Positions 1,873 to 23,973 of a stretch of 30,357 nucleotides of DNA are shown here, in pieces. Position numbers and translations under genes: made by a program. Every line of letters begins with the position of its first letter. Position 1 is the first letter of the stretch. The notes beneath the pieces are model-generated. The model ran no database searches. It was not told the DNA's origin and worked only from the letters and a program-made list of their open reading frames with translations. The stretch is from a virus: the IMG/VR virus record IMGVR_UViG_3300026197_000008, positions 1 to 30,357 of that record. The stretch is one strand, 5' to 3'.

Positions 1873-3699
1873 TTATAAAGTAAAAACTTTAAATAACTTG
1901 CTTTTTAATTTACCTGCCTTCTTTGCAGCAAATAACAAAGCACCATATTTTTCTGCTTGTTTTTTCGCCTCTTTCTTGTCAAGCCCCTTTTGTATCAATT
2001 GACGTTCAAGTTTTTTGACACGGGTTTGACTGTCTTTTAGATTTTTATAAGGCTTTTGTAACGCTGGGTTATCTTCTAAAAGCTGCCTAACCATTGCGTT
2101 AGGGGCTTTACTTGACTTGCTTAAAGCATCTGCACGCAAAGATTTTAAATATTTAACATCGTGTTTGTGCCCTGCATAATCACGTAACGCATCATGTAAA
2201 ACATCAGGAAACGTCTTTCCAATGTCACTATTAAGCACACTTACAATTTTTTGCGGCGACATATCAAGCACATTTTTATTCGCTAAATAATGCCTAGCCA
2301 TTGTGTTGCTCATTTTTTCATTCTCTAAGAGCTTATCTAATAGCTTTCGCGTGCCTGGCTGGTTTAATGCATTAAAATAATTATCCGGTACCACTTCTTT
2401 ACGTAACAAATTACGGGTCGGCGCATGAGTGTTTAACGGCGCAACATGATTTTTATAATAGACTTGCGCATCAGTAAACTTTTTTAACCCTTTCGTATCA
2501 AGTGACTTTTCAAACGCGGTTTTAACGTCGTCTTTAAGCTGATTAAGCGATTTACTTGCACTAACTAAATTCGATTTCAGTGGGTCGATCGAATTTCTTG
2601 CCTGTTCACTTAAATCAAACGATTTGTCACGAATTGCACGGTAAAGCTTTAAATAATCCTTAACACTGTGGGTTACTTCGGGCACTTCTGTTTTCATGCC
2701 CAGCTGCGTGTTCAGGGTGGGTTTTACTTCTGGTTGCTTTAGCGGTTCAATCAGTTTTTTTATTTCAGGCGCTAAATTTAGCACGCCCTCATTAATGCCA
2801 TGCGTGCGTTTGAGCTCATTAAAATTAATTTGTTCATCAATTGGCTGTTTACCATGCTCTTTTTCAAAAGAGCTATAACGCTCTTTACTTGTATTACGTA
2901 ACGCTTGCGCGACATCTTTAACATTAGAAACCAAGTCACCTCTGGCGCCTTCCATATCACCAAGCTGTAATTTATTTTCTAAATTGTTAGCTTTTTGCTC
3001 AACAAGTTGATTTTTTTTCTCAATTAATGAATCAATATTTCCAGTAAAGTCCTCACCTAATGATTCAGACTTGAGTTTTTCAGCTTCTTTAATTGGCTTT
3101 ATTTCTTCAATTTCTTTTTCAATTTTTCCGGGACGCTGCAAATCATCAATCATTTGCTTTAATGTATTTTGTGGTCTAGGCGTTTGTGTCTGAGCTGCAC
3201 CAGATGGAGGCGCTTCACCTTGAGCCGCACCAGATGAGGGCGTTGGTCTTTCTGCTGCACTCATTGGCTCTGAAAATTCACTTATGCCGCTTTTTAAGCG
3301 CCCAGCAATTTTAGGGGCTGCTGCTGGCAATCCCATTAGTAAGCCACTCATTAATTTTTCAGCGCCTGTAGGTGCTGGCGAAGTGGCTGTCCCATAAGCA
3401 AGTAACAAAGGAGCCGCACCGGCTCCGGTAGTTGATGCCGCGGCAATTGCTGGCACATCCGCGCCAATGCTGCCTAACAGTTGTCCTAAATTACCGGCAA
3501 AGTTCGGTGACACTTCTGGGGGGGGTGTAGTAGGATTACCCAGTGTTTTTATTTGATTAGCCCGTGATTCAAATGCTTTTTTGAGATTAGGCATAAAGCC
3601 TTCACGTGCATACCTAGCTTGCTGTTGGGCTTGCTGGTATTCTTCATCCGTAATCGGTGTGACCTCGCCAGTGTATCGATTAACTTTTTCAAATGGCAT
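1873..3699 (-). CDS. Probable ejection / internal virion protein (608 aa)
   Basis: Large protein directly upstream of the tail fibre, in the position of P22 gp16. Residues about 65-135 are rich in Gly, Ala and Leu with hydrophobic stretches (APLLLAYGTA, MSGLLMGLPAAAPKIAG) that could insert in or cross a membrane. Residues about 185-290 are charged and predicted by eye as coiled coil. The C-terminal third is Lys rich and helical. This layout (hydrophobic N-terminal part, long helical body, basic end) is usual for podovirus DNA-ejection proteins, which leave the capsid with the DNA and help it cross the envelope. No peptidase or lytic-transglycosylase motif was recognised. It begins one base beyond the end of the Gln-rich gene upstream, so the two are coupled. 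Function is inferred from order and composition. Confidence 0.55.
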   Translation of the reverse strand: MPFEKVNRYTGEVTPITDEEYQQAQQQARYAREGFMPNLKKAFESRANQIKTLGNPTTPPPEVSPNFAGNLGQLLGSIGADVPAIAAASTTGAGAAPLLLAYGTATSPAPTGAEKLMSGLLMGLPAAAPKIAGRLKSGISEFSEPMSAAERPTPSSGAAQGEAPPSGAAQTQTPRPQNTLKQMIDDLQRPGKIEKEIEEIKPIKEAEKLKSESLGEDFTGNIDSLIEKKNQLVEQKANNLENKLQLGDMEGARGDLVSNVKDVAQALRNTSKERYSSFEKEHGKQPIDEQINFNELKRTHGINEGVLNLAPEIKKLIEPLKQPEVKPTLNTQLGMKTEVPEVTHSVKDYLKLYRAIRDKSFDLSEQARNSIDPLKSNLVSASKSLNQLKDDVKTAFEKSLDTKGLKKFTDAQVYYKNHVAPLNTHAPTRNLLRKEVVPDNYFNALNQPGTRKLLDKLLENEKMSNTMARHYLANKNVLDMSPQKIVSVLNSDIGKTFPDVLHDALRDYAGHKHDVKYLKSLRADALSKSSKAPNAMVRQLLEDNPALQKPYKNLKDSQTRVKKLERQLIQKGLDKKEAKKQAEKYGALLFAAKKAGKLKSKLFKVFTL

Positions 3700-5043
3700 T
3701 TATTGACTCCTAGGACGTATTACGTATGCAGGGTTTTTTGGGTCTATAAACGTTTTATAGTAATCTGATACTTCTCCTTCAACACCTTTTGCAATCTGCT
3801 CACCACTTAATGCTTTAGCCGTAGCAAACGGGGTTTCACCGGGCTTTTTACCTTTTGATAATTTTTCTTGTGCTATCAATCTTGTTTTAGCTGTTTGCAA
3901 TGCTTCTTCAATGGCGTGTAGCTTTGCTTTTAAGGTAGTTTCATTATCTGATATGCTCGGCTTGTTTTGTTGAAGAATTGCATACTCGCGTTCCGTAAAT
4001 CGAGTATTTAGATTTTTAGCGCGCGTATTAACCAATTCATTTAACTTACCACGAATGTTAGCTAAATTTCTTTGGTGCATTTCATCACCTTTACCACTGA
4101 AAAAATCAAGATGATTTATTGTTTCTAATGGGTGCATATTTTGCATTATGGCACCGCCAACAAAACGCTTAAGCGGGTTGTTTGAAGTGAAATAATCAGC
4201 ACCTACACCAAAACGTTCGTTATATCCTAGGTTTTGCGCTTCTTGCTTATAATTCTTTAATGACTGGTTAATGTTTTCAACACTATCAAGCGCACTTTGC
4301 ACACCGTCAAACGCTGCACCTCGCGCTTCTTTTTCTTTAATTAATGATTTTTCTGTTTCTTTGTATGATTCAAGATTTCCTTTACTTTTGTCATCGTAAT
4401 AAGTCTTTAATTGATCGGATACCGTTTTATTAGGAAACATCATATTTAAACGCAACGCATTTTCAGGGGTCATCTTACCAAGCGGTGTGTCAATGACTGC
4501 CTGTTGAGGCGCCTGCTGTTGCATAGGCTGCTGTTGTTGCATAGGCTGCTGTTGTTGCTGCTCAGGCGTTGCAAACATCTGATTGCTTTGTAAAGTCTGC
4601 GGTGAAGGCTCTCCTTGTGCCTGTGCTTGACCGCCTACGCCCTGTTGCATGGACTGTTGCATGGCTTGCTGCATTTGTTGCATATAAGCAGCAGCAGCTT
4701 GGGGATCGTTTGCTCGCTTAGCTTGCGCAACTTTGTATTTTAGCAACTCAATATTCTGCTCATTTTGCTGCTTTTTAGCGGCCATATCTTGTTGACCAGA
4801 TTGCAATTGCTGCTGTATTTGCTGCATGCGCAACGGGTCAAATTGCTTTTGATGTTCCATTTGCTGTTGCATTTGCTGAATACGTAACGGGTCAAATTGC
4901 TTTTGCCGCTCAAACTGCTGTTTTTGTAAGCCAAGTTGCTGGTCAGCTAATTGCTTTTGCATTAACCTATCAAACAAATTTTGTGACGTAGCCGCTAAGC
5001 CACCGCCAAAATTCGCGCTTGGTAATGGTATCCCTGAACTCAT
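3700..5043 (-). CDS. Gln-rich probable ejection protein (447 aa)
   Basis: I place the start at ATG 5043 (MSSGIPLPSANFGG), 10 nt after the upstream gene stops and behind an AGGGGG-type ribosome site; a longer frame from 5085 would overlap the upstream gene. Residues about 25-175 are extremely rich in Gln with two tandem 18-residue repeats beginning KQFDPLR, followed by QQQQPM runs. The rest is charged and helical. It sits second in a run of three genes equivalent in position to P22 gp7, gp20 and gp16, so it is likely an internal virion protein ejected with the DNA. Gln-rich low-complexity regions are common in such proteins. There is no sequence motif proving the role. Confidence 0.5.
   Translation of the reverse strand: MSSGIPLPSANFGGGLAATSQNLFDRLMQKQLADQQLGLQKQQFERQKQFDPLRIQQMQQQMEHQKQFDPLRMQQIQQQLQSGQQDMAAKKQQNEQNIELLKYKVAQAKRANDPQAAAAYMQQMQQAMQQSMQQGVGGQAQAQGEPSPQTLQSNQMFATPEQQQQQPMQQQQPMQQQAPQQAVIDTPLGKMTPENALRLNMMFPNKTVSDQLKTYYDDKSKGNLESYKETEKSLIKEKEARGAAFDGVQSALDSVENINQSLKNYKQEAQNLGYNERFGVGADYFTSNNPLKRFVGGAIMQNMHPLETINHLDFFSGKGDEMHQRNLANIRGKLNELVNTRAKNLNTRFTEREYAILQQNKPSISDNETTLKAKLHAIEEALQTAKTRLIAQEKLSKGKKPGETPFATAKALSGEQIAKGVEGEVSDYYKTFIDPKNPAYVIRPRSQ
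4831..4906 (-). repeat. 54-bp tandem repeat encoding an 18-aa KQFDPLR unit
   Basis: The segment AACGGGTCAAATTGCTTTTG occurs at 4832 and again at 4886, a spacing of 54 bp, matching a repeated 18-residue unit in the Gln-rich protein. The copies differ slightly, so this is an older in-frame duplication. Confidence 0.7.
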
Positions 5044-5053
5044 ATCATGCCCC

Positions 5054-5602
5054 CTATGGCTTCCACGCCCCACGACCAAAACCACCAGTACCCATACCGC
5101 CAGTTAAATAACTACCAGCCAAATTAAGCCCTGTATTTACTAAATTACCAAACATTTGACCGGGTGCATTGGTTTTACCATACTCCGTCTCAGCCATTGG
5201 TTTCGACATGCTCGCGCCTGTGTTATACATATTCTGTCCAATGCCTGCGCCTGTTTTGTACATATCCATTAAGTTACTAAGGTATTGCTGCCGATCAGCC
5301 GACCCTATTCGACTTGTGCCCGCTTGAATGGCTTGTAAAGCAGGTGTTGACCCCATTAATCCCATGCTGCTAGCCGCGTTTAAACCGCCTTGCGTGGCTT
5401 TTTGTTCCATCTGCTTAGCATACGGGCTTTCCTCGTAACCTTGCGCCCACTTTGATTGCAGCGCCTCAGGGTCAAGTAAATTCTTCATCGCCCCTTGCAA
5501 ACCCTGCTGCGCATCTAACCCACCTTGATAATAAGGTTGGTACTTCTTTTGCGCTTCTTCATAGCCCCTTTCAGGGTGCAACCAACTTGAAAACATGCTC
5601 AT
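5054..5602 (-). CDS. Small virion protein, probable ejection protein (182 aa)
   Basis: The start is ATG 5602 behind AGAGG with 7-nt spacing; an upstream TTG at 5608 is less likely. The protein begins MSMFSSWLHPERGYEEAQKK, contains a helical, Gln- and Ala-rich middle, and ends in a Gly/Met-rich tail with a weakly hydrophobic segment (NTGLNLAGSYLTGG). Its size and place as the first of three genes before the tail fibre match P22 gp7, a small ejected protein. No catalytic motif was seen. The role rests on position and composition. Confidence 0.45.
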   Translation of the reverse strand: MSMFSSWLHPERGYEEAQKKYQPYYQGGLDAQQGLQGAMKNLLDPEALQSKWAQGYEESPYAKQMEQKATQGGLNAASSMGLMGSTPALQAIQAGTSRIGSADRQQYLSNLMDMYKTGAGIGQNMYNTGASMSKPMAETEYGKTNAPGQMFGNLVNTGLNLAGSYLTGGMGTGGFGRGAWKP

Positions 5603-5614
5603 AAACAAACCTCT

Positions 5615-6055
5615 TTAAGTAATTGTGAACCCACTAGTTGAATAATGCCTTGCTACCCATAATGACCCCTCAGTAACACACATTACACTAATGCAATCAT
5701 ATCGATTAGTTGACGCAACGCTAGTACTTGCTGATGAACCTAACACCTGCACCGTCTGGCTATTTGTCGCTAACACCCAGCCACCTGCACCCTTACCAAC
5801 TATTTCAATCACCGAGCCAACAGGCGCCGATGGCAATGTAATCGTTGTTGTTGATGCATTATTAATAATGTACAGGCTATTGGTTGCCCCAGTTTTTGCT
5901 GTGCTTGTCTCAACTGTCGAACTAACCGTGTTTTGCTCAATTTCAATAAATGCACCATTAACCACATCAATAGTATTGTGTAGCCATGTGTTGAACTCAT
6001 TTTCAAATTCATCAATGACCGGTGTTGTGTTTAAACGGGATAGCTCTAACGCCAT
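5615..6055 (-). CDS. Small virion protein in the tail-needle position (146 aa)
   Basis: The ATG overlaps the stop of the gp10-like gene upstream as TAATG, so translation is coupled. Residues 1-50 look helical (DEFENEFNTWLHNTIDVVNG); residues 60-146 are Thr/Ser/Val rich and beta-like, with a GKGAGGWVLATNSQTVQVLG stretch found in many phage virion proteins. P22 encodes its tail needle (gp26) immediately after gp10, and a helix followed by a C-terminal knob is the layout of some needles. There is no clear sequence match to gp26, so needle, tail plug or decoration protein are all possible. Confidence 0.45.
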   Translation of the reverse strand: MALELSRLNTTPVIDEFENEFNTWLHNTIDVVNGAFIEIEQNTVSSTVETSTAKTGATNSLYIINNASTTTITLPSAPVGSVIEIVGKGAGGWVLATNSQTVQVLGSSASTSVASTNRYDCISVMCVTEGSLWVARHYSTSGFTIT

Positions 6056-7851
6056 TAGTTAGCCCCTCCACTTGAACGCCTTAAGTTTTGCGCACCGCCT
6101 AAGATAACTATAGGACATGGCGCAACACACACAAGCTTATAAACACGGTTTCTTGATGCACCCAGCTCATACCACCGCATGCGCCATCGGTAATTACCTA
6201 GCGGGCTAAATTCACGCTTATCACACGATTCAAACGTAATACCACCATCGTCACTTAAAAAAAGCTCAATGTGCGGCTTAAATAAGTTGCGGTAATTTAT
6301 CTCATCAATTGCAGGGGTGTCTGTGCCGTCAACCTCAATAAAAATGGGATTATCTACAGTACTGTCTTCCGCCTCAATGTAAGTGGGGTTGTCTGGGTCG
6401 GAATCTTCCGTTATTAAATAAACCGTATTCTTAAACGCCCCTTGATATTTGTAAAAGGTCTGACTTCCAAACACAAAATCAATTTCAATGTAATCAGTAA
6501 TGAATTCACTATAATCTTTCTCATAAATTTGAGGAGTAACTAACTCGTAGCGCATTGGGTAAGCTATGTAGGCGTCATCTGCTTGATTGTCATCCTGCAA
6601 AGGGTTTCGTACCTCATTCGTGTACGTAAGCCCGCTTAGCTCGTATATCGTGCCCTCACCATCGACAGTGACCAAATGCTTGTTATTGTAGAAAACGTGA
6701 CGTTCAGCCTTGTTACGTGTTCCATCGTATTCAATAACACGGCTCCACGTCTTAGTATTAAAATTATACTCTAATGCGCTGGCGCTATCGGCTAACGTTT
6801 CACTACCAAAATCAAATAACGCTTCATTACTAAAACGATACAGCAATGTATTTTCATACTCATATAGAAACCCATTGCTATTACTGACTAAAAAGTCAGC
6901 GGTCGTTTCATCTTGTGCATTAGCGGTAAGTAATACGTCTACCGCTTGACTTGAAATATTTTCAGGTCGCTGCCCCGTGCTAGTCATAATCGATACTAAC
7001 CCATTACGGTTTTTACTTAACCATGTAACACGGCCAAAGTTCACATCCAAACTAAAAGGGTCAGCAATGCCATAATCCCAGTTATAAGAAGTGTTCAACT
7101 TCCACGGGAATTCAGCCGTTTCCCCCGCTACGGTTATGCGAGTCGGTATATTCGCCCAAATATCTGTTGTGTAATCAGTGAATATATATAACTGGTTATT
7201 AAGCACAGCAAATTGACGAACAATACCACTCGCCCTCGCAAATAGTGGCGCGTCATTGATTGCAAAAACATTTTCAGTGGCGCCAGATAGATTAATGGTT
7301 GTTAACGCAAATTGCGGACTGTCTTTCGTGCTAACAACAAATCGGTTACCAAATGACGCAACAAAGGTTGGGTTATTGGGCAATGTCGCGCTGTTTGCCC
7401 CACTTCTAACCGCTGCAGATACATTTGTAAGCGTGCTATTCCCGCCTTTTTCATTGATGAGCCATAAATCCGTCCCATCAGCGAAAAGGCATTTGACTTC
7501 ATCGCCAACCGGTAAAAAATCAAACCATATATTATCGTTATTGCTTATAAAATTGCTGGTATTGGTTAAGCGGCGCAAGTTGTATCTGCTATCAACGCGA
7601 TAAACGTCAACATCAACAAAAACATAAACGTAATCAATGCTTTTAAATACGGCTCTAGGCTGCTTATCAAAAATAAGTCGGTTTCTATTGAGAAAGCGAA
7701 CATGCTTGCGACCCAATGCCGGATAAAGTGCTTGTTGTCGCTTGCTGACCTCATTTTGCACTGCATAGAAATTAGCGCAGTCCATCGAGCCAAATTGGTC
7801 AAACCGCTGCTTATCAAATGCGCAAAATATCGGTAAATCTTTGATTGGCAT
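6055..7851 (-). CDS. P22 gp10-like packaged-DNA stabilisation / tail hub protein (598 aa)
   Basis: The N-terminus MPIKDLPI matches the start style of P22 gp10 (MPIQQLP), followed by a beta-rich protein with repeated hydrophobic strands (YVYVFVDVDVYRV, NNQLYIFTDYTTDIWAN) as in gp10. The family closes the portal channel after packaging and carries the needle and spikes. This copy is longer than P22 gp10 (472 aa); an acidic segment around residues 480-515 (EDSDPDNPTYIEAEDS) looks like an insertion. It follows the adaptor gene with a shared base at 7851 and overlaps the next gene by one base. The call rests on N-terminus, fold pattern and gene order. Confidence 0.75.
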   Translation of the reverse strand: MPIKDLPIFCAFDKQRFDQFGSMDCANFYAVQNEVSKRQQALYPALGRKHVRFLNRNRLIFDKQPRAVFKSIDYVYVFVDVDVYRVDSRYNLRRLTNTSNFISNNDNIWFDFLPVGDEVKCLFADGTDLWLINEKGGNSTLTNVSAAVRSGANSATLPNNPTFVASFGNRFVVSTKDSPQFALTTINLSGATENVFAINDAPLFARASGIVRQFAVLNNQLYIFTDYTTDIWANIPTRITVAGETAEFPWKLNTSYNWDYGIADPFSLDVNFGRVTWLSKNRNGLVSIMTSTGQRPENISSQAVDVLLTANAQDETTADFLVSNSNGFLYEYENTLLYRFSNEALFDFGSETLADSASALEYNFNTKTWSRVIEYDGTRNKAERHVFYNNKHLVTVDGEGTIYELSGLTYTNEVRNPLQDDNQADDAYIAYPMRYELVTPQIYEKDYSEFITDYIEIDFVFGSQTFYKYQGAFKNTVYLITEDSDPDNPTYIEAEDSTVDNPIFIEVDGTDTPAIDEINYRNLFKPHIELFLSDDGGITFESCDKREFSPLGNYRWRMRWYELGASRNRVYKLVCVAPCPIVILGGAQNLRRSSGGAN

Positions 7852-8837: not shown

Positions 8838-10079
8838 TTAAGAGCAGATTCGCACAGCAAATTCGGGGTTGATAGCAACACCACAAATTAAGTCGATTCT
8901 GTCAAGCTGGTCGTAGTTGCGAAGGTCCGCACCTAAACTATAAGTCATAGACATTTTGTAAAGATCGCTCGTCTTAGTAACTGCTTCAACACCGCCACGA
9001 AGTGCTTTCAATGGAGGCGCAGCAAAGACAATCGCTTGTGAGTGATACGCAATAGACACATTGTGGTCATCACGTAGCAAAATCTGAGCACCGTTAGGAA
9101 TAGCCGCGCTGATGTTTTGACGCGCACCAGACACGACAATCTCAGGACTAATGGGTACAGTCGCAGCGCCAGCACCATCACTGGTTACATCAGAAGTCAC
9201 GACAAATTGTGCGCGTTGTGACAGCGCGTCATACGTTAAAGGATTAACCATAAACACGCCCGCAGCGTCATCAACTTCGATAATGTCACCCTCACGGAAA
9301 ACAACACTTGAAGCGACTAAGCCAGTTAATGACAAACTAGAACCAGAAGAAACAGGGCCACCCGTTACAGTACCACCTAGTTTGAAACCAGAAGGAGGCG
9401 CGCCGCCTGCTTCACCTGCACCCGACACTTGGCGACCTAAAAAGTTAGTTTTAAAGAAATCAAAACCACTTAATCGACCAATGAACCCATCCATCAACGC
9501 ACCGCTGTTAACTTCCGTGTTAAACACGTTGTAAAGGTCATTAGAAAGTGACGCTGATACGCGAGGAGGAACCGCTGCATAACGCTTGCCGTCTTCTGGA
9601 ATAGCTAGCTCAGTCATGTAAGCGTCTGCTGTAGCAATCGTGTTAAAGTCAACAGCAACGCCTGGCGTACCAACCGCTTGATAAGTTTGTTTTTGCAGCT
9701 TGTCTTTAGCAATGTAGTTTTCAACAAGGTTACCTAGACGCTTGGCGCGAGGTGCGTTAGCCATTTCTAAATAAGGCTCATCACGTGCGCGGTCAAACGT
9801 TAATTCATAACCATCATATTCAACCATTGTGTGGTATTGCTTTTCAATAGTAAGCGGTCTGATTTGCTGTACACGTGCCTCAGTTGTTGCGGCAGCACCT
9901 TCACCGGCAAGATACCTTTCTTCTAAACGATAGTTGACCGTTTGGCCGGGGGCGTATTTAGCGCTTGAAAAATCGTCCTCAAGATTACGGTTAGCAGTTC
10001 TTGCAAATGCTAAAGAATTCCAGAAACGTACAAAAACGTCATTTAAGACGTAGCTAGTTTGATTAAATTGGTTTGCCAT
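8838..10079 (-). CDS. Major capsid (coat) protein, P22 gp5-like (413 aa)
   Basis: The protein follows the scaffold gene and has the size of P22 coat (430 aa). Features that fit this HK97-fold family are the helical N-terminus (VLNDVFVRFWNSLAF), the basic segment with VEYDGYELTFDRARDEPYLEMA, the conserved ARAKRLGNLVENYIAKD-type helix and the beta-rich C-terminal half ending GVAINPEFAVRICS. The start at ATG 10079 is behind GGAG at 11-nt spacing. It forms the icosahedral shell around the scaffold. It has its own candidate promoter and is followed by a strong terminator, consistent with high expression. Confidence 0.85.
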   Translation of the reverse strand: MANQFNQTSYVLNDVFVRFWNSLAFARTANRNLEDDFSSAKYAPGQTVNYRLEERYLAGEGAAATTEARVQQIRPLTIEKQYHTMVEYDGYELTFDRARDEPYLEMANAPRAKRLGNLVENYIAKDKLQKQTYQAVGTPGVAVDFNTIATADAYMTELAIPEDGKRYAAVPPRVSASLSNDLYNVFNTEVNSGALMDGFIGRLSGFDFFKTNFLGRQVSGAGEAGGAPPSGFKLGGTVTGGPVSSGSSLSLTGLVASSVVFREGDIIEVDDAAGVFMVNPLTYDALSQRAQFVVTSDVTSDGAGAATVPISPEIVVSGARQNISAAIPNGAQILLRDDHNVSIAYHSQAIVFAAPPLKALRGGVEAVTKTSDLYKMSMTYSLGADLRNYDQLDRIDLICGVAINPEFAVRICS

Positions 10080-10229: not shown

Positions 10230-11084
10230 TTAACGTCTACGTAGCCTGTTTGCAGCCCGTCGCTTGTCGTTTTGCGCTAATAAGTAATCAATGTCATCCT
10301 CCTGCTTTTTGTTATTAGCTTTTGTAGTGCTTGTAATGTCGCTTTCAGTGTTACTTACTGGGCGCGGTGCTTTGGTTGCTTTTTTATTAGTGCGCATGCG
10401 TTCCTCTAACCTACCAATCTCAACCATTTGACGATAAGGGTCGCTAAGCTCACTAATACGCCTTAATTCTTCGGGCTGTCGTTTGCTAGCTGCATAGATG
10501 AACGCCGCAGGGTCATTAACACCGCGTAATCCCATCGTCATAGCATCACTAACGGGTTGAGCAGATACAACCTCGCGAAAGTCATTAAACCGCTCCATAC
10601 CTTGATGAAACTTTTGCGCAAATTCCTCTTGTGCTGCCTGCTCTTGACGCTGAATAGCTTGCTGTTGCTGCTCTTGACCCATTTCTTGGTATGTAGTGCG
10701 TATAAAGTCTTTTAGCTGTTGCTGCCAATCACCGCTTGCATTTTCATCGTATTCAAATCCTTGGTGTTGCTGCTTTGCTTGCTGGTATGCTTGTTGCTCT
10801 TGTTGTGGCTGTTGGTTACGCTCAAAGCGGCTTAAACGCTCACGCACGGCCTTATTAATACGCTCGTTAACCTCATCCTCTGTATACGTCCTAGGCGCTG
10901 CTTTTTCGTTACCGTAGTCGTCAGTGTCAGCTTGCTGTTCTTCGTTGTCGTCGCTTTCTTCCTGCTCTACTTGCTCCGACATGCCATAATCTTCACCTTC
11001 TTGCGCTGGCTCATTTTCTACTTCTGGCGTTTCGGGTTCTGGCTCAACACCAGATAATAGATTATCAAGCTCTACGTCGCTCAT
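10230..11084 (-). CDS. Capsid scaffolding protein, P22 gp8-like position (284 aa)
   Basis: The protein is highly charged and helical. Residues 1-60 are acidic (EEQQADTDDYG), the middle is Gln rich (QQQQQAIQRQEQAAQEEFA), and the end is basic (DKRRAANRLRRR). The basic C-terminus matches the coat-binding helix-loop-helix of P22 gp8. It sits between portal and coat as in P22. Two ATGs are possible: 11090, which overlaps the portal stop as TAATG but is only two bases from the GGAG site, and 11084, which has 8-nt spacing and is preferred. Expected role: internal template for procapsid assembly, released on maturation. Confidence 0.8.
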   Translation of the reverse strand: MSDVELDNLLSGVEPEPETPEVENEPAQEGEDYGMSEQVEQEESDDNEEQQADTDDYGNEKAAPRTYTEDEVNERINKAVRERLSRFERNQQPQQEQQAYQQAKQQHQGFEYDENASGDWQQQLKDFIRTTYQEMGQEQQQQAIQRQEQAAQEEFAQKFHQGMERFNDFREVVSAQPVSDAMTMGLRGVNDPAAFIYAASKRQPEELRRISELSDPYRQMVEIGRLEERMRTNKKATKAPRPVSNTESDITSTTKANNKKQEDDIDYLLAQNDKRRAANRLRRR

Positions 11085-11089
11085 TGTCA

Positions 11090-13279
11090 TTACTCCACTT
11101 TGCTAGTTAAAATCTTCATTAAATTATCAGCATGAGCAATTTGTTCATCTGTGTTAGTGCGATGCGTTTCTGCTGCATATCGCATTTCTTGCTCTTGTAG
11201 TCCGCTGGCTATCTGTAACCGCTCTGTTTTTAATTTCTCAAGCTCTCTCGTTGTTTCAACCTGTTGCTTTTCAGCCTTTAGCTGCAACTCTTGCTCCTTT
11301 AGTTCAAGCTCTTTCATTTTTGCTTGCTGCGCCATCATGGCTGCTTGTTCTTGTGGGTCAGGTTTTTGTTCCTTAGGTGGTGGAGTTTTCCCTGTTTTGC
11401 CTGCTTCAATAATTTCAGGCGGTACAATTGTTTTTAAACGGTTCTTAATTTCAATGGTGTTGCTAAGCGGTAAGTTGTCAGCGTACAAGTCAGCAAACAA
11501 ATTGAGCAATTGAGGGTTAGCTTGTAGCACCATGTTTAACGATTGTAATGCTTGCTCTTTTTGCCCTTCATAGCTAGCACCCGGTTTTAAGTTAACTTGA
11601 TAAGTGCCTTTGCTTAAGTCGTTTTCGATAATTTCGCCGTATTCATCCACTTGCTTGTTTACTGAGACGTTTTGCAAGCCTTCGCCAGTCATTAATGAAA
11701 ATACGCGCTCACTGTCGTAGACGTTAGGAATCATTTCATTAAGGATGCGTCCACCTGATGTTATCGCGCGATTGATATTATTAAAGTAAACGTAAGTTGG
11801 GTAAGAGCCTTGTCGTGTGCGTGCGTCAATAGCTGCGCCACTTTGCTCATTTCCTTGTTGCCCCATGCGTGTGGCATATAGCCCGGTACTTGTATAAAGG
11901 TCATTAATAGCACGCTCATATTGCGTTAATAGCGATTGTGACAGCTCTGGCGGTCTTACCTGCTCAGGTCTTGCACCGCTTGGGCTTTCATCGTATGTAA
12001 GTAAACCCTGGGTGTTTAATGGGTCTTTCCAGATAGCTTGTGTGTCATTGCTAGCAACGTTTTTCTTGCTACCAAGCCACTGGTCATAACGTGACACCTT
12101 AAGTGTGTACGCTGATTGTGTGCCAAGGTAATTGATATAGCGTTGCGCGTCTCTGGCATCATCTAAGAAACCACGAGTAATTTGCTTGCCGTTTTTATCA
12201 AAATAACTGTTTTGGTCAACAAAAATAATAGGCATGTTTTCGCTAGGGAATACGCTTTCTTCAAGCACGTAATCACCAGCAATTTTGTAATGATGTATCA
12301 CGCTCTTTTTAATATCGCGCTTATCTTCAATGCGTACAGGCTGACCCTCATCAAATAACGTTATTAGCTCGCTTTGTTCTTCAACTTCTTCGCTAGACAA
12401 GTCAGACGCTTGTTCATCCTCGCCTTCTACTGCGTACTCATCAACCACGCCCATCATCTGATTAGCTAATTGCTTAGACGTTTCAAAAAGCTGAACAATT
12501 TCATCGTGATTATAAATCTTGCCGTTGCTCATTTTATACAATGTGTCTGATTCAAATTTGCGCACAAAAAAATCATTAATCGTTATGCTGTCTTTATCCG
12601 ACCACTCAAAACCAGTGCCGTTACTGTTTGTTGCTGTTTCACGTGAAACATCTTCTTTTGTCGCACCAACGCCATCATCTTTATTAATTTGTGCCTCTGC
12701 ACGCTTGCCATACTTTGCACGAAACTTTTTGCGTGACATAAGCGAGGTATAACCACAATGCATGCCGTCTGTTTTATCGTCTAGTTCTGCGCCTGCATCC
12801 CAGTAGCACGTTGTGGCATCTTTAAAATACTTGTACTTAATGTCTAGCTCAAAGCTCTTGTCATGCGTGTAATCAGTTAACAACGCAAACGCACCAAAGC
12901 CGCCAATAGCCGATTGCTTAGCTGCCATTTGATACACCAGCTTAGTGCGTGAATCGAACATTATGTCTTTAATGATAAGCTCGCGAACTTGTGCCGTCTG
13001 TTCGTCACAGTTTTCCATGGGCACCACTTCAAGTTGTGGCGTGTTTTGTTGCTGCTCACCCAATAAGGCGTTAATTAGCGTGCTAAGCTTGTTAAAAGTA
13101 AGCGGCACTTTTTTAAGCCCTTGCAGCACGTCACTTTCTTCATCTGTCCACTGCCTGCCAAGGATAAATTCAAAGTTTTTATGATAATGATCGATGTTTG
13201 TTTGAAAGTAATTGCGCCATGCTTCGCAAGCACTGCGCGCTTTCTTTGCTATCTTTTCGTTTTTTTTGACCTTTACCAT
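11090..13279 (-). CDS. Portal protein, P22 gp1-like (729 aa)
   Basis: Its length is nearly that of P22 gp1 (725 aa) and it lies between terminase and scaffold. The N-terminus is basic, then NYFQTNIDHYHKNFEFILGRQWTDEE and LTFNKLSTLINALLGEQQQNTPQ match the conserved opening of P22-type portals; the region DLYTSTGLYATRMGQQGNEQSG is also typical. The C-terminal 110 residues are Gln/Lys/Glu-rich coiled coil (the barrel-type extension). A ring of 12 forms the DNA channel at one capsid vertex and binds the terminase. It starts behind AAGGA, 10 nt downstream of terL. Confidence 0.9.
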   Translation of the reverse strand: MVKVKKNEKIAKKARSACEAWRNYFQTNIDHYHKNFEFILGRQWTDEESDVLQGLKKVPLTFNKLSTLINALLGEQQQNTPQLEVVPMENCDEQTAQVRELIIKDIMFDSRTKLVYQMAAKQSAIGGFGAFALLTDYTHDKSFELDIKYKYFKDATTCYWDAGAELDDKTDGMHCGYTSLMSRKKFRAKYGKRAEAQINKDDGVGATKEDVSRETATNSNGTGFEWSDKDSITINDFFVRKFESDTLYKMSNGKIYNHDEIVQLFETSKQLANQMMGVVDEYAVEGEDEQASDLSSEEVEEQSELITLFDEGQPVRIEDKRDIKKSVIHHYKIAGDYVLEESVFPSENMPIIFVDQNSYFDKNGKQITRGFLDDARDAQRYINYLGTQSAYTLKVSRYDQWLGSKKNVASNDTQAIWKDPLNTQGLLTYDESPSGARPEQVRPPELSQSLLTQYERAINDLYTSTGLYATRMGQQGNEQSGAAIDARTRQGSYPTYVYFNNINRAITSGGRILNEMIPNVYDSERVFSLMTGEGLQNVSVNKQVDEYGEIIENDLSKGTYQVNLKPGASYEGQKEQALQSLNMVLQANPQLLNLFADLYADNLPLSNTIEIKNRLKTIVPPEIIEAGKTGKTPPPKEQKPDPQEQAAMMAQQAKMKELELKEQELQLKAEKQQVETTRELEKLKTERLQIASGLQEQEMRYAAETHRTNTDEQIAHADNLMKILTSKVE

Positions 13280-13289
13280 GATTTTTCCT

Positions 13290-15938
13290 TTAAGCTAGTG
13301 AACTTGCCCATCTGTCGGGCATTTTTTTTGTATTGTGTAGTGTAGCACCTAAAAAATCACCTACAGCAAAGGTCAATGCTACCGCGTCGGCTATATCAGG
13401 CGACCTTATGCCACGTTTTTTTGCTTTTTCTTTGCTTTCTATTTGTAACCTGCCAGAACTATCGAAATGATACCCTAAGCCTGTTAAATCGCCCCTTAAC
13501 TCGTCACTATCGGGTAACTGAACGGGCAGTTCTTGGCTTAACCATTCTCGCATATCATGCCACAGCTCAGCGCGTAAGTTTTTAAATTTGTCTTTTTCAT
13601 TTGCTGAACGTGCGACGTTAACGCCTTCAACTTGCGTGTAGCCAATTTCTAACAATCTATCAACAATACCAGCACCTATACCGATGCAATCGATGCAGAC
13701 TTTAACCGGGTGCTCTTTATCAATGATACGCCTGACAAGCCCGACCAGCTCCATGGTGTTTAAGTTGTAGTGTGTTTCAAGATTGTAAACTAAGCGCCCC
13801 TTACGTCTAATGATAGCCGTTCTATCGTTGTCGCTAATAGCGGGGTCAACGCCAATGACTAACGGTGATTGTGATTCAACTTTGTTTTTCATCGCACGAT
13901 TAACAATGTCTACCTTAATAAACCTGTCAGCTACAGGGTTGCGAAAGGCATCAAGTGCGGTAAATGGGTACTCAACGTTGAATAGCTCGCGTGCTTGCTC
14001 ATAGTCACTATCAAATTCATGCAACTTTTTACGTCGCCACATCAAATGCTCACGTGTCAGACCATTTGCGCCATGTTCATTTATATAATGTAGTTCCTCG
14101 TCAGTTAACGAGCTACCATCATCCGGCAATGTGTATTCATCTTGCCAATACCACGGTATAAATATGGCCTGAAAGTCACTTTGGCCACTTATAGCTGATT
14201 GCCACATATTATAATAGTAGTTGCCGATGCCGTTGGCGGTTGATTCAAGGATGATTTCTGTACCTGGCTCATTTGGCACCGCTTGCAAAATCCCTTTTGC
14301 ATGTTCCTCAGCATTTGGCCAATAGGCAACTTCTGAATTATGCGTGCTTCCGTGAATAGTGCAGTAAGAGTGATCGGGATGATCGACTTCAAAATCATAA
14401 ACCGGTTGCATTCCAACTTCACCAATTCTTGTAATTGTTAACCATGCGTAACCACTGCTTATTTCAGTTGTTTTTGCTGCTTTATTCTTAATTGAATTTG
14501 TTTTTGTTCTCGTTAATTGTGGCGATGGTTTTCCAAGTATCTTTGCAATTTGACTAACGCCATTTCCACACAATGCAAAAGTATAAGCTTCTTTCTCATT
14601 TCTTCCTGCTCTAATGGCTGCTTGCTTATGCTCTATACTAGCCCATCCGTAACCCAATGAAGCGCAAATATCTCGCGCGGTGACTGTTAGCGATGCACAT
14701 ATTGATGTGGCTCTTATTCTTCTGGCATCGCCATAAGACGAACCATCACCAGCTAGATATCCTAGTAATAATCCTTGGCAAAATTCTTCACCCATAAGGT
14801 CCCAATTTCTCGGAAAATGCTTATTAGTAGTTCTTCCACATAAAACATTAATCATGCTTATAAAGCGATTACCAGTGATGTTTATCTCAGTTGTTAGTGA
14901 ATCCTCTCGATGCTTAACTTTGAAACTAGAAAAGTAATCAAAAAATGGCGTTAACCACTCAATAGTTCTTTCTACTTCTTTACGGTGAACTACTATTTGA
15001 AGCGCGCACGGATAATGCGGATATTTATCCTGTAATTTTATATGGCCGTCCGCAAGATACAAACCAATGAATCTACCTAAAGCATAATCATTAACAATGG
15101 AATCAGGGCATTCAAATTGCCTACCTCCACCATGAACCCGGTTATTAGCTTTTGGAATGTAAAAATCACTGATTTGTTTTGAAATTGGCTTAACCGGGTA
15201 ACCAATACTATCACCTAGATTTAACTTGTTTAACGCTTTCCATCCTTCTTTAGTCCAAAATTTGTGCTCAGGGGTTGCAACTAAAGGAAAATTAGAAAGA
15301 CCACGGAATGTAATTGATAAACATTCTTTCGATTGTGATGATATATAAGATATTAGTGCGCGTTGACCTGTATGCGTGAGAATTTTATCGCCTACTGTAA
15401 AATCTTCAATGTATTTTACTCCGCCTGTATCGGGGTCAAAGATACGCGATCCCTTTCCAAGACAACCGTGAAACAATTGTATAGTTTGAGAACGACCGAC
15501 TGCTTTATTACCAGCCGTACCCACTGCATAACCACTGTTTAACGATTTAAAATTGAGTTCTTTGGCGCTTGATGTGTCAGGTTGCGGCAACAATCCATAC
15601 GGCGCTAAATCATAATAGCGCTTAGTCATTTCAAACAAATTTTTTGTTGCTTCGCTCTCGTGCGTAAGAATAAACGCCTTTTTTCCCACTTGTGTGCTTA
15701 CTTTGTAAAAGTCTCTTGCTTGTATATAAGTACTACACCCTTGCTGCCTCCCTTTGCAGATTATCGCCCTAACCTTACCTGTTTCTTTTAGTTGCTGCTC
15801 TAATCGCTCATGCAGATACAATTGCGCTCGATTAAGCTTAAACGCTTTAACAGCGCCATTTTTAGTGCGTATCTGCAAAAAAGCTTTTGCAAACAACGTA
15901 AAATCACTAAGCACTTTTAATAATTTTTTTTGATTCAT
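13290..15938 (-). CDS. terL: Terminase large subunit containing an intein (882-aa precursor, about 506-aa mature protein)
   Basis: ATPase-nuclease motor that packages DNA through the portal. Visible motifs in precursor numbering: Walker A-type KGRQQGCST (62-70), Walker B split by the intein (IQLFHG ends at 158; SEVAYW resumes at 535), coupling motif ESTANG (565-570), and nuclease acidic residues at D698 (VIGVDPA), D750 (VCIDCIG) and D848 (SPDIAD). Without the intein the protein is 506 aa, near P22 gp2 (499 aa). The start overlaps the small-subunit stop as ATGA. Splicing must remove the intein to rebuild the ATPase site, so the unspliced form should be inactive. Confidence 0.93.
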   Translation of the reverse strand: MNQKKLLKVLSDFTLFAKAFLQIRTKNGAVKAFKLNRAQLYLHERLEQQLKETGKVRAIICKGRQQGCSTYIQARDFYKVSTQVGKKAFILTHESEATKNLFEMTKRYYDLAPYGLLPQPDTSSAKELNFKSLNSGYAVGTAGNKAVGRSQTIQLFHGCLGKGSRIFDPDTGGVKYIEDFTVGDKILTHTGQRALISYISSQSKECLSITFRGLSNFPLVATPEHKFWTKEGWKALNKLNLGDSIGYPVKPISKQISDFYIPKANNRVHGGGRQFECPDSIVNDYALGRFIGLYLADGHIKLQDKYPHYPCALQIVVHRKEVERTIEWLTPFFDYFSSFKVKHREDSLTTEINITGNRFISMINVLCGRTTNKHFPRNWDLMGEEFCQGLLLGYLAGDGSSYGDARRIRATSICASLTVTARDICASLGYGWASIEHKQAAIRAGRNEKEAYTFALCGNGVSQIAKILGKPSPQLTRTKTNSIKNKAAKTTEISSGYAWLTITRIGEVGMQPVYDFEVDHPDHSYCTIHGSTHNSEVAYWPNAEEHAKGILQAVPNEPGTEIILESTANGIGNYYYNMWQSAISGQSDFQAIFIPWYWQDEYTLPDDGSSLTDEELHYINEHGANGLTREHLMWRRKKLHEFDSDYEQARELFNVEYPFTALDAFRNPVADRFIKVDIVNRAMKNKVESQSPLVIGVDPAISDNDRTAIIRRKGRLVYNLETHYNLNTMELVGLVRRIIDKEHPVKVCIDCIGIGAGIVDRLLEIGYTQVEGVNVARSANEKDKFKNLRAELWHDMREWLSQELPVQLPDSDELRGDLTGLGYHFDSSGRLQIESKEKAKKRGIRSPDIADAVALTFAVGDFLGATLHNTKKMPDRWASSLA
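14337..15464 (-). mobile_element. Intein with LAGLIDADG homing endonuclease, inserted in the terL Walker B motif
   Basis: A 376-residue in-frame insert, precursor residues 159-534. Splicing signals are present: Cys159 at the N-terminal edge (CLGKGSRIFD), block B TPEH (222-225), block F around VYDFEVDHPDHSYC (513-526), and the C-terminal His533-Asn534 followed by Ser535 as +1 nucleophile. Two dodecapeptide motifs, IGLYLADG (D297) and GYLAGDG (D398), keep both catalytic aspartates, so the endonuclease is probably active. Removing it joins IQLFHG to SEVAYW, restoring a normal terminase Walker B. It is a selfish protein-level element that spreads by cutting intein-free terL alleles. Confidence 0.95.
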
Positions 15939-16279
15939 TTGCTTGTTGCTTTATCAATCAGCTTTTCAACAATACTTTCAAACTTTTTGTCGTCTTTGTC
16001 TTTTTCTCGCCACATTCCCTTACCACGCGTTTTAAGCCAAAAAATGATTGCTCCTAAATCGCCTGCTTTCGCTTTCTGATAAAGCTTGTTAGCAATAACC
16101 ATGTTTGCCTCAACCGAGGCGGTGTCAAGCTCAACACGATAATATTTCATCAGCGTTTCATCTGATATGCCCAAATGCTTACCAATTTCTTGATCCGTAT
16201 GGCCAAACATTTTTAACGCTGAAACTTTAGCAATTGTTTCCTCTGTTCTCTTGTGTGCTTTTCTGCCTCTAGTCGCCAT
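15935..16279 (-). CDS. terS: Terminase small subunit (114 aa)
   Basis: DNA-recognition subunit of the packaging motor. A basic N-terminus (MATRGRKAHKRTEE) precedes a helix-turn-helix (SALKMFGHTDQEIGKHLGISDETLMKYY), the usual layout of small terminases. The C-terminal half is helical (ANMVIANKLYQKAKAGDLGAIIFWLKTRG), a pattern seen in many terS proteins, and should form the oligomer ring. I use ATG 16279 behind GGGGTG, not the TTG at 16300. The stop overlaps the terL start as ATGA. A pac site may lie within or near this gene, by analogy with P22; I could not identify it. Confidence 0.85.
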   Translation of the reverse strand: MATRGRKAHKRTEETIAKVSALKMFGHTDQEIGKHLGISDETLMKYYRVELDTASVEANMVIANKLYQKAKAGDLGAIIFWLKTRGKGMWREKDKDDKKFESIVEKLIDKATSK

Positions 16280-16291
16280 AATTTGCACCCC

Positions 16292-16325
16292 AAAAAACAA
16301 AACCCCCTTTGCGGTAGGGGCTTTG
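16292..16325 (-). terminator. Intrinsic terminator between the 48-aa gene and terS
   Basis: Minus-strand hairpin CCCCT-ACCGCAA-AGGGG (16320-16304), followed by GTTTTGTTTTTT. An AAA/TTT extension outside a C-C mismatch lengthens the stem. On the plus strand the same hairpin is followed by seven T at 16329, so it may work both ways. Placed before terS, it could be the point where late transcription needs antitermination. Confidence 0.65.
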
Positions 16326-17505: not shown

Positions 17506-17533
17506 AAATAAAAATAACTTAGGAGTTGACACA

Positions 17534-17947
17534 ATGAACTATGAGATAACTTTCCCTGAACTGTGCGCATTAAAGCGCGAAAAGCTTGGACTTACTAAAG
17601 ATGAGGCAATGAAGCGCATTGGCTACACTAATTATCTTTATTTTGAAAAAGGAAAAGCTACCCCACGCCCGATGCTAACTAAAATTATCGAGTTTTACGG
17701 CATAACAAACGAGGAAATAGAAGCATGCAAAGACTATAAGCCTAATCAGGAAACCGAAACTAAAAGCACCACTGGCGTTAGCATTAAATCAATGCTTGAT
17801 GATATTGAAGAACTTTTTAAGAAAACCGAACAACTAACAATGAAAGGAGCGCTTGGTAAAAAGTTAATCAACGAGGCGATAGAAAAACTTAAAATAGCAG
17901 AAGAATCACTAACAGAAATATCAATACTAGATGAGCTAGTAAAATGA
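17534..17947 (+). CDS. XRE-family helix-turn-helix regulator (137 aa)
   Basis: Start at ATG 17534 behind AGGAG (8-nt spacing); a TTG at 17492 would overlap the upstream gene. Residues 5-60 form an XRE-like HTH (LCALKREKLGLTKDEAMKRIG, then YLYFEKGKATPRP and a recognition-end helix IIEFYGITNEEIEA). Residues 75-137 are a charged coiled-coil-like helix that could mediate dimerisation. No peptidase domain is present, so it is not a classical CI/LexA type. It may repress or tune the early promoters, alternatively it may act on host genes. Confidence 0.65.
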   Translation: MNYEITFPELCALKREKLGLTKDEAMKRIGYTNYLYFEKGKATPRPMLTKIIEFYGITNEEIEACKDYKPNQETETKSTTGVSIKSMLDDIEELFKKTEQLTMKGALGKKLINEAIEKLKIAEESLTEISILDELVK

Positions 17948-22016: not shown

Positions 22017-22667
22017 ATGAACAATTCAGTATTAGTGCTCGGGGAATCGGGCACTGGTAAAAGCACAAGCATAAGAACCCTAAAACCTGCTGAAACGTTT
22101 ATTATTAGCGTCATAGGTAAACCATTGCCGTTTAAAGGCGCTCGCGATGGTTACGTGGCATTTAGTAAAGACAATGAAAAAGGCAATTTCTACGTCAATG
22201 ACAACTATCAAAATATCATTCGATGCATTAAATATGTGCAAGAAAAGCGCGAAAAAATAACCACGCTTATTATTGATGATTTTCAATACATCATGGGCAA
22301 TGAGTTTATGCGACGTGCTAGTGAAAAGGGCTTTGATAAGTTTAGCGAGATTAGCAACCACAGCTGGCTTGTGCTGGAGGCGCTTAACGCCAGCAAACGC
22401 CCGCTAACCAGCTTTGTGTTATCGCATAGCGAACGTGACGATTATGGTGTGTCTAGAGCACAAGTTATTGGCAAGCTACTAAGCTCTAAAATCAGCATGG
22501 AAGGCATGTTCACAACTGTGTTACATGCAGTGCGTAATGACGATGGGTTTTGCTTTATTACACAAAATGATGGTAATTACAGCGCTAAAACACCAATGGG
22601 CATGTTTGAGGATATGTATATCGACAATGATTTACAGTTTGTTAAAGACAGTATTGAAAACTATTAA
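22017..22667 (+). CDS. Sak4-like P-loop ATPase, recombination protein (216 aa)
   Basis: RecA-fold ATPase of the kind used by phages for single-strand annealing. Walker A GESGTGKST (9-17) and Walker B TLIIDDF (83-89, Asp87-Asp88) are clear, and the RecA-like order continues with TSFVLSHSERD. It is shorter than RecA and lacks its C-terminal domain, as in Sak4. It lies between the coiled-coil protein and an SSB-like protein, and Sak4 proteins need SSB for annealing. ATG 22017 follows AAGG. An alternative is a general AAA-type phage ATPase. Confidence 0.75.
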   Translation: MNNSVLVLGESGTGKSTSIRTLKPAETFIISVIGKPLPFKGARDGYVAFSKDNEKGNFYVNDNYQNIIRCIKYVQEKREKITTLIIDDFQYIMGNEFMRRASEKGFDKFSEISNHSWLVLEALNASKRPLTSFVLSHSERDDYGVSRAQVIGKLLSSKISMEGMFTTVLHAVRNDDGFCFITQNDGNYSAKTPMGMFEDMYIDNDLQFVKDSIENY

Positions 22668-22681
22668 TAAAAGGGGAAATA

Positions 22682-23251
22682 ATGAGCTTTTTTACATTAA
22701 GCAACGGGGAAAAACCAACGGGCGACGCTGAGAGCGCCCACGCGGCAGGTACTTTGCTTATACCGCACAACACGCAAGCCATTGCTAAAATTGACAGCTT
22801 TAAACTAATTGAGTCACAAACCAGTGACTTTCCAAGCTTTTATGCAGTTAAATTTGAGTTAATGAACACAAAATATAAAGGCTTTTATGTCACATTAAAG
22901 CTAAAACCATATGATCAAAAAAAAAGCATACAAGATCGCGCTAAACAGATGTTTGTTAGACTTTATCACTTGTGCCAACTGCAACCAGCACATAGTGGCG
23001 CACCACAAGATAACGATTTATTAATGTTTAAAGATAAAATACTTGGAATTAAAATTTTGCAATGGTTCTACCAAGGCAAAGAAGGTAATTTTGTTTCTGA
23101 AATACATAGCAGTCAAAACTATGAGTGCAAAGAGGGTGAATACTTAACGCCACCCACACCATCAGGTCAAGATGTCAAACAGCAGGAAACGGCAGATCAA
23201 GCGTTTTCACAGCAACAAACGCAAACGCTGGATGACGATATCCCATTTTAA
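22682..23251 (+). CDS. SSB-like single-stranded DNA-binding protein (189 aa)
   Basis: ATG 22682 behind AAGGGG. The N-terminal 130 residues are beta rich with a FKLIESQTSDFPSFYAVKFE section and a YKGFYVTLKLKPYD strand, as in phage DUF669-type SSB proteins. The C-terminal tail is Gln/Thr rich and disordered and ends DDDIPF, the acidic tip by which SSBs recruit partner proteins. It should coat single strands during replication and assist the Sak4-like ATPase and the exonuclease encoded next. Confidence 0.8.
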   Translation: MSFFTLSNGEKPTGDAESAHAAGTLLIPHNTQAIAKIDSFKLIESQTSDFPSFYAVKFELMNTKYKGFYVTLKLKPYDQKKSIQDRAKQMFVRLYHLCQLQPAHSGAPQDNDLLMFKDKILGIKILQWFYQGKEGNFVSEIHSSQNYECKEGEYLTPPTPSGQDVKQQETADQAFSQQQTQTLDDDIPF

Positions 23252-23310
23252 TTGTAAAAAAAATGTTAAGGAAAATACCGAACGTTACGACTTGCTGACG
23301 AGCCTGAAAA

Positions 23311-23973
23311 ATGAAGCTAATAAACAAAATTAAACGGGCTTTTGCTAAGCCAGTTGATGAAACCCCCAGAAAGTATTTAGGGGCTTCATCAATTGGTCAC
23401 CCATGCTTACGCTATCTACAAAATGTTTACAATGGGATTGTGTCTGAAACTACACCAAAGCAGTCTCGCACTTTCGCTTTAGGTTATGCAATAGAGTCAA
23501 TGATTGTCTCAATTTTAGAAAACAGTTCCATTACTATCGAAACACCTAATAACAACAATAAACAGCTATTGCTTACTTGTGACGATGTGCCGGACTTTAA
23601 AGGGCATTGTGACGCTATTGCACACGAAAAAAACGCGAAGCACATTATAGAGATTAAAAGCGCCAATCAATCAGCGTTTACGCAAATGAAAAAGCATGGC
23701 ATTAAAGCTACTCGACCTACTTATTACGCACAAGGGCAAGCCTATTGTGGGTTTTCAGGTGCTCAAAGCGCTGTGTTTATCGTATTTAATAAAAACACAA
23801 GTGATTTGCACATTGAGCAATTTGATTTTAATCCTGATTGCTACGAAGAATTAAAAATTAAAGCCAAAACCGTAATTAACAGCACCTCGCCTGCGCCCAT
23901 GATTAGCGATAAACCCACTTATTTCGTGTGCCAGATGTGTTTTTACAAAAAACATTGTTTTGGTGAGCTATGA
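23311..23973 (+). CDS. Cas4/RecB-like exonuclease with Fe-S cluster (220 aa)
   Basis: PD-(D/E)XK nuclease. Active-site residues: Asp101 (GHCDAI), Glu114 and Lys116 (IIEIKSA), and a following YYAQGQAYCGF helix with the usual Gln-Tyr. Cysteines at 32 (GHPCLRY) and 207, 210 and 216 (CQMCFYKKHC) fit the four-Cys iron-sulphur cluster of Cas4 and AddB. It probably resects DNA ends for the neighbouring Sak4-SSB pair. A TGA just upstream of the ATG fixes the start, but the ribosome site is weak. No Cas1/Cas2 or CRISPR is present, so a CRISPR role is unlikely. Confidence 0.85.
   Translation: MKLINKIKRAFAKPVDETPRKYLGASSIGHPCLRYLQNVYNGIVSETTPKQSRTFALGYAIESMIVSILENSSITIETPNNNNKQLLLTCDDVPDFKGHCDAIAHEKNAKHIIEIKSANQSAFTQMKKHGIKATRPTYYAQGQAYCGFSGAQSAVFIVFNKNTSDLHIEQFDFNPDCYEELKIKAKTVINSTSPAPMISDKPTYFVCQMCFYKKHCFGEL

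Follow-up and report, generated by a model that had tools for sequence, protein, structure and literature searches.

The large terminase (TerL) gene of this virus is interrupted within the Walker B motif of the packaging ATPase by an in-frame insert which, judged by its residues and relatives, is with little doubt a mobile class 1 intein carrying a two-motif LAGLIDADG homing endonuclease. Related inteins occupy the identical position in dozens of environmental phages, and trees together with sharp breaks in sequence identity show horizontal movement of the family at this site, both among the relatives and in the lineage of the window (the whole 30,357-nucleotide stretch of viral DNA analysed here). 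The intein thus illustrates well a type of selfish element that is already known, and does not represent a new mechanism. We infer that the copy in the window is active in splicing and cleavage.

The interrupted terminase gene

The terL precursor gene is an open reading frame of 882 residues on the minus strand (13290..15938). Its N-extein (residues 1-158; 15465..15938, minus strand) contains the Walker B beta strand, TIQLFHG, as well as a P-loop of deviant sequence, GRQQGCST. The C-extein (residues 535-882; 13293..14336, minus strand) begins with the +1 Ser535 and the catalytic Glu536, and contains the ESTANG coupling motif and a nuclease domain with an SPDIADA metal motif. Together the exteins make up a protein of 506 residues and 57 kDa. 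Since scans of the whole 882-residue precursor against PHROGs and Pfam gave no terminase match, we base the TerL identity on three other lines: a sequence profile, structure and the neighboring genes. The profile, made from 15 intein-free relatives, matches T4 gp17 across the ATPase part (E=3e-11) and Sf6 gp2 and E217 TerL in the nuclease part, and a structure model of the intein-free relative L009 matches Sf6 gp2, T4 gp17 and HK97 TerL.

This combination of ATPase and nuclease fold is encoded beside P22-type genes for the terminase small subunit (15935..16300; PHROG 309, E=4e-17), portal protein (11090..13279; Pfam P22_portal, E=1.4e-107), head scaffolding protein (10230..11090; PHROG 8865, E=5e-20) and coat protein (8838..10079; Pfam P22_CoatProtein, E=2.2e-15), all on the minus strand, and a head-closure protein gene is also among the neighbors. 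The genes follow the same order as in the Pseudoalteromonas podovirus H6/1. An earlier, sequence-only reading of this DNA had called the phage P22-like, a description that the portal and coat matches and the neighbor order uphold for the head module.

The intein itself (residues 159-534; 14337..15464, minus strand) is 376 residues long (1128 bases) with a mass of 41,991 Da, in agreement with the 42-kDa insert proposed earlier at exactly these coordinates. The splicing residues and the two LAGLIDADG acids named in that proposal are all in place. The splicing residues comprise Cys159 at position 1, a B-block TPEH (222-225), H523 in the F-block, a His-Asn end (H533-N534) and the +1 S535, which supply each of the residues that define class 1 (Cys or Ser at position 1, TxxH in the B-block, a C-terminal Asn, and Cys, Ser or Thr at +1). 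The splicing half matches NCBIfam intein-containing models (4e-7 to 2e-6) and, among solved structures, best matches the Mtu RecA intein PI-MtuI (E=1.2e-7), over about the first 90 residues only; that intein resides in another host protein and at another site. The intein was also modeled with AlphaFold2, with moderate confidence overall (mean pLDDT 70), poor quality over the last 16 residues and low confidence at the C-terminal splice block; the model matches TliVMA, PI-SceI, I-DmoI and I-SceI. A HINT fold is accordingly indicated both by the Mtu RecA sequence match and by the model matches to TliVMA and PI-SceI, the latter being limited by the low confidence of the C-terminal block, and a LAGLIDADG fold is indicated by the model matches to I-DmoI, PI-SceI and TliVMA.

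The endonuclease domain (14490..15164, minus strand; intein residues 101-325, bounds approximate) corresponds roughly to the part that is absent from two related mini-inteins. It has two LAGLIDADG helices with their acids, GLYLADG (D297) and GYLAGDG (D398), and scores 18.9 bits with Pfam LAGLIDADG_3, under the 22.5 cut-off of that model. In relatives the second acid is Asp and the first is Asp or Glu; among the closest ones the first is Glu except in L083 and L002, which makes Asp297 one variant of the family. Either Asp or Glu occurs as the LAGLIDADG acid in active enzymes.

The insertion site

The earlier reading had proposed that the insert splits Walker B between Gly158 and Ser535, and had suggested aligning the extein to intein-free TerLs. 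This alignment supports the proposal: the insert is absent from the intein-free relatives L009-L017 (extein identity about 71-76%), which are gapless across the exact junction and read ...QLFHG-SEVAYW... at the empty site, and it is likewise absent from 116 distinct intein-free TerL relatives, every one of which has S-E here. Among the 36 occupied genes in which both junctions are visible, S-E is found in 34 and T-E in 2. In the profile alignment to T4 gp17, HGSEVAF falls on YIDECAF and the S-E pairs with the Walker B acidic pair, which we take to be numbered Asp255-Glu256 in gp17; Ser535 then has the place of Asp255, and Glu536 that of the catalytic Glu256. The alignment thus places the insert after the Walker B strand and immediately ahead of the acidic pair, with the Walker B position itself as the predicted +1 nucleophile.

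Such a site would suit the element in several ways. Because the protein motif encoded there hardly varies, the DNA target stays similar across phages, and flanking DNA is indeed kept in empty relatives (37/42 bases in L014, 35/42 in L010). This TerL lineage has a conserved Ser, a usable +1 nucleophile, at the Walker B residue, as opposed to the usual Asp that is found in T4; with the Ser already there, it could take an intein at this position without a change of residue, which offers a simple reason for its openness to inteins. Finally, imprecise loss of the element would kill the motor. As the insert parts Glu536 from its own beta strand, we expect the precursor to be inactive as a motor and probably unable to hydrolyze ATP.

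Movement among related phages

Scans of IMG/VR, GTDB species genomes and a phage collection with an alignment of the inteins identified related inteins at the identical TerL position in 37 records, the window included and some of them near duplicates, with L111 as a further partial case. Most retain two LAGLIDADG motifs. The exceptions L095 and L096 are the mini-inteins, of 150 and 154 residues and without endonuclease; the nearest relative of L095 in both trees, L086, still has the endonuclease. The existence of two relatives lacking the nuclease domain fits the homing cycle. A scan for which intein-free TerLs were the sole seeds yielded no instance of this intein among its 80 best loci, which suggests that it is uncommon, bearing in mind that the ranking of these loci favors likeness to intein-free proteins and that they are hence not an unbiased sample. 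Across 50,697 phage records there was no match to the window intein at 80% coverage, and the best matches, at 23-24% identity, were to mycobacteriophage proteins with methylase or helicase annotations. What is documented is a mobile intein family at one exact position of a packaging ATPase, in environmental phages and with no close relative of the window intein in the cultured phages searched.

A tree of the exteins of 66 TerLs, built without rows of very long branches, requires 10 changes of occupancy at the Walker B site, gains and losses being counted alike, of which at least 7 are forced by supported branches. In the intein tree the window groups with L002 and L083 (support 99/99), a grouping of the window with L083 that the extein data reject (delta lnL 291, AU p 7e-89). 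The inteins of these two are 67% alike, their exteins 57.5%. Sharp discrepancies in identity are seen in two recent pairs: L098 and L112 share 96.3% of their intein DNA with exteins 66-70% identical, L107 and L109 share 96.6% with exteins 57-61% identical, and in both pairs the identity drops at or near the intein ends. The dN/dS ratio in the endonuclease part of these pairs, given for them only since dS is saturated in most others, is ~0.1, indicating purifying selection on this part. Together with the empty relatives these near-identical inteins in diverged terminases offer ready pairs for tests of homing between phages. A further pair, L003 and L004, was kept out of the evidence for transfer (AU test on the intein data, p 0.065). 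Between the window and L002, 13 of 20 differences lie in the 1128-base intein and none in the shared extein (Fisher p 1.5e-4), a skew that would fit intein alleles having been exchanged and would equally fit a weaker constraint on the intein. Outside terL, a cluster of 5 window/L002 differences lies at 17525-17584 of the window, in an otherwise near-identical 4.6 kb.

Two other accounts of the insert bear on this evidence. That the window comes from a metagenomic virus record might raise the suspicion of an assembly artefact, or of a chance insertion that resembles an intein, yet two other contigs, L006, which differs from the window at 1 of 4165 bases, and L002, at 20 of 4592, have the same junctions as the window, and 34 more distant records have an intein at the same position, leaving this idea with a negligible probability. 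Rather less far-fetched, although still improbable, is that the endonuclease has already lost its activity and that the element is a passenger, fixed and inherited vertically. Indeed, the closest empty alleles known for the window and L002 are only about 71-76% identical in the extein. Against this, the domain and its two acids are intact, the endonuclease part is conserved as much as the splicing part relative to L083 (67% each), and the intein and extein trees disagree on the lineage of the window.

Splicing, packaging and known terminase inteins

A mobile intein at this site would act as follows. Once the precursor is translated, Cys159 would attack the Gly158 carbonyl and the N-extein would be transferred to the +1 Ser535, after which cyclization of Asn534 would release the 42-kDa intein and leave a seamless TerL of 506 residues. 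The freed endonuclease would cut terL alleles that lack the intein, at the codons for Walker B, and repair of the break would copy the intein into the empty terL. Elsewhere in the window (22017-23973) is a recombination cassette made up of a Sak4-like annealing protein, a single-strand binding protein and a Cas4-domain exonuclease, functions that could repair a homing break.

Inteins in phage terminases are known, as the earlier reading had noted, and published cases include one in Walker B (mycobacteriophage Gaia, PMC5050341) and others in the P22-type headful TerL of the Microcystis phage Mic1 (PMC7156551). The comparison of insertion sites which that reading had called for confirms Walker B as a known TerL intein target, yet the match is not exact. 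The intein of Gaia gp2 (TerL1-e) resembles that of the window in interrupting Walker B of a large terminase with Ser at +1, and splices quickly in a reporter (PMC5050341). By our reading it lies after the motif (...FIILNEA/SHHMT, the slash marking the insertion), three residues downstream of FHG/SE in the window; it is treated as class 3 (PMC5050341) where the window's is class 1; and tblastn detected no sequence similarity between the two. The window intein thus falls outside the TerL1-e group in both position and class. The two Mic1 inteins, one of which has a homing endonuclease, are also at catalytic motifs, but these are the coupling motif (ALLTG/TPKG) and the nuclease metal motif (DHL/CDAL), not Walker B (PMC7156551). 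The exact position in the window is therefore different from those of Gaia and Mic1, while the motif, host protein and type of element are already known. The mycobacteriophage inteins TerL1-a/b share element class and host protein with the window's (PMC5050341) but lie at the P-loop, the equivalent site of which (GRQQGC/S) is occupied in relatives of the window and empty in the window itself; for TerL1-b and TerL1-c, endonuclease activity on intein-free alleles has been shown (PMC5050341). AceL-TerL and GOS-TerL (PMC11766414) are likewise TerL inteins of environmental phages, but occur naturally in split form, their N fragments being short and their +1 residue Cys, whereas the window's is contiguous and includes an endonuclease. 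The class 1 inteins found here are candidates for protein-splicing tools.

The earlier reading went beyond an intein with an intact-looking endonuclease in Walker B, all of which stands, to propose that packaging could depend on splicing conditions, and here we part from it. That the intein is retained as a switch, with splicing holding back maturation of the terminase until redox state, temperature, a metal, late infection or some such condition permits it, has some attraction: the site is essential for ATP hydrolysis, making the precursor probably dead, and AceL-TerL, one of the TerL inteins with temperature optima, is fastest at 8 °C (PMC11766414), which fits a cold habitat and keeps an effect of conditions possible. 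Control of packaging by splicing has also been proposed for Mic1, in the accessible part of that paper without a terminase experiment (PMC7156551), and a switch has been suggested for TerL inteins generally (PMC5050341). An inactive precursor does not by itself imply a splicing switch, however, and we found no feature pointing to conditional splicing. Neither the last three residues of the N-extein, -3 to -1 (FHG), nor the start of the C-extein (SEV) offers a Cys that could form a redox trap with Cys1. The five mycobacteriophage terminase inteins tested by Kelley et al., the Walker B intein of Gaia among them, all spliced quickly, although the authors nonetheless argue for sensor roles of inteins (PMC5050341). 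Moreover, the distribution is sporadic, with close relatives lacking the intein, and the many empty alleles, repeated lateral gain and remnants that have lost the nuclease are what a selfish homing element would produce. We consequently regard retention as a switch as very unlikely, and see as no likelier the form of the idea in which the family is kept as a physiological packaging gate whose motor stays inactive until a late-infection signal triggers splicing.

Other inteins were encountered in the course of the searches. A family of about 265 residues occupies the P-loop (GRQQGC/S) in L026, L028, L029, L036, L039, L065, L067, L071, L072 and L196; its members are 43-77% identical to one another in the pairs compared and weakly similar to the window intein. 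The protein annotated as 'terminase' in Lactococcus phage 949 (L164:2384-4477) was considered as a parallel case and set aside: it has a similar intein, after a GRPKSGK P-loop, but does not look like a TerL, and the annotation as terminase large subunit may be wrong. A third intein site in the TerL lineage is the nuclease metal motif (SPD/C...N/CADAL), occupied in the related TerLs of L058 (4465-5430) and L184 (TerL ORF 2980-5493), and Mic1 has an intein at an apparently equivalent place. Some genes contain more than one insert. In L140 (bacterial MAG contig WGMI01000017.1, perhaps a prophage), ORF 2534-6274 encodes a TerL of 1247 residues with both P-loop and Walker B inteins, and in L089 the 1310-residue TerL encoded by ORF 3275-7204 has, besides the Walker B intein, another insert whose ends resemble those of an intein (EYPA/C...HN/TAALAF). 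TerL-like ORFs in L117 and L134 have an intein at yet another site (GH/C...HN/CDQD).
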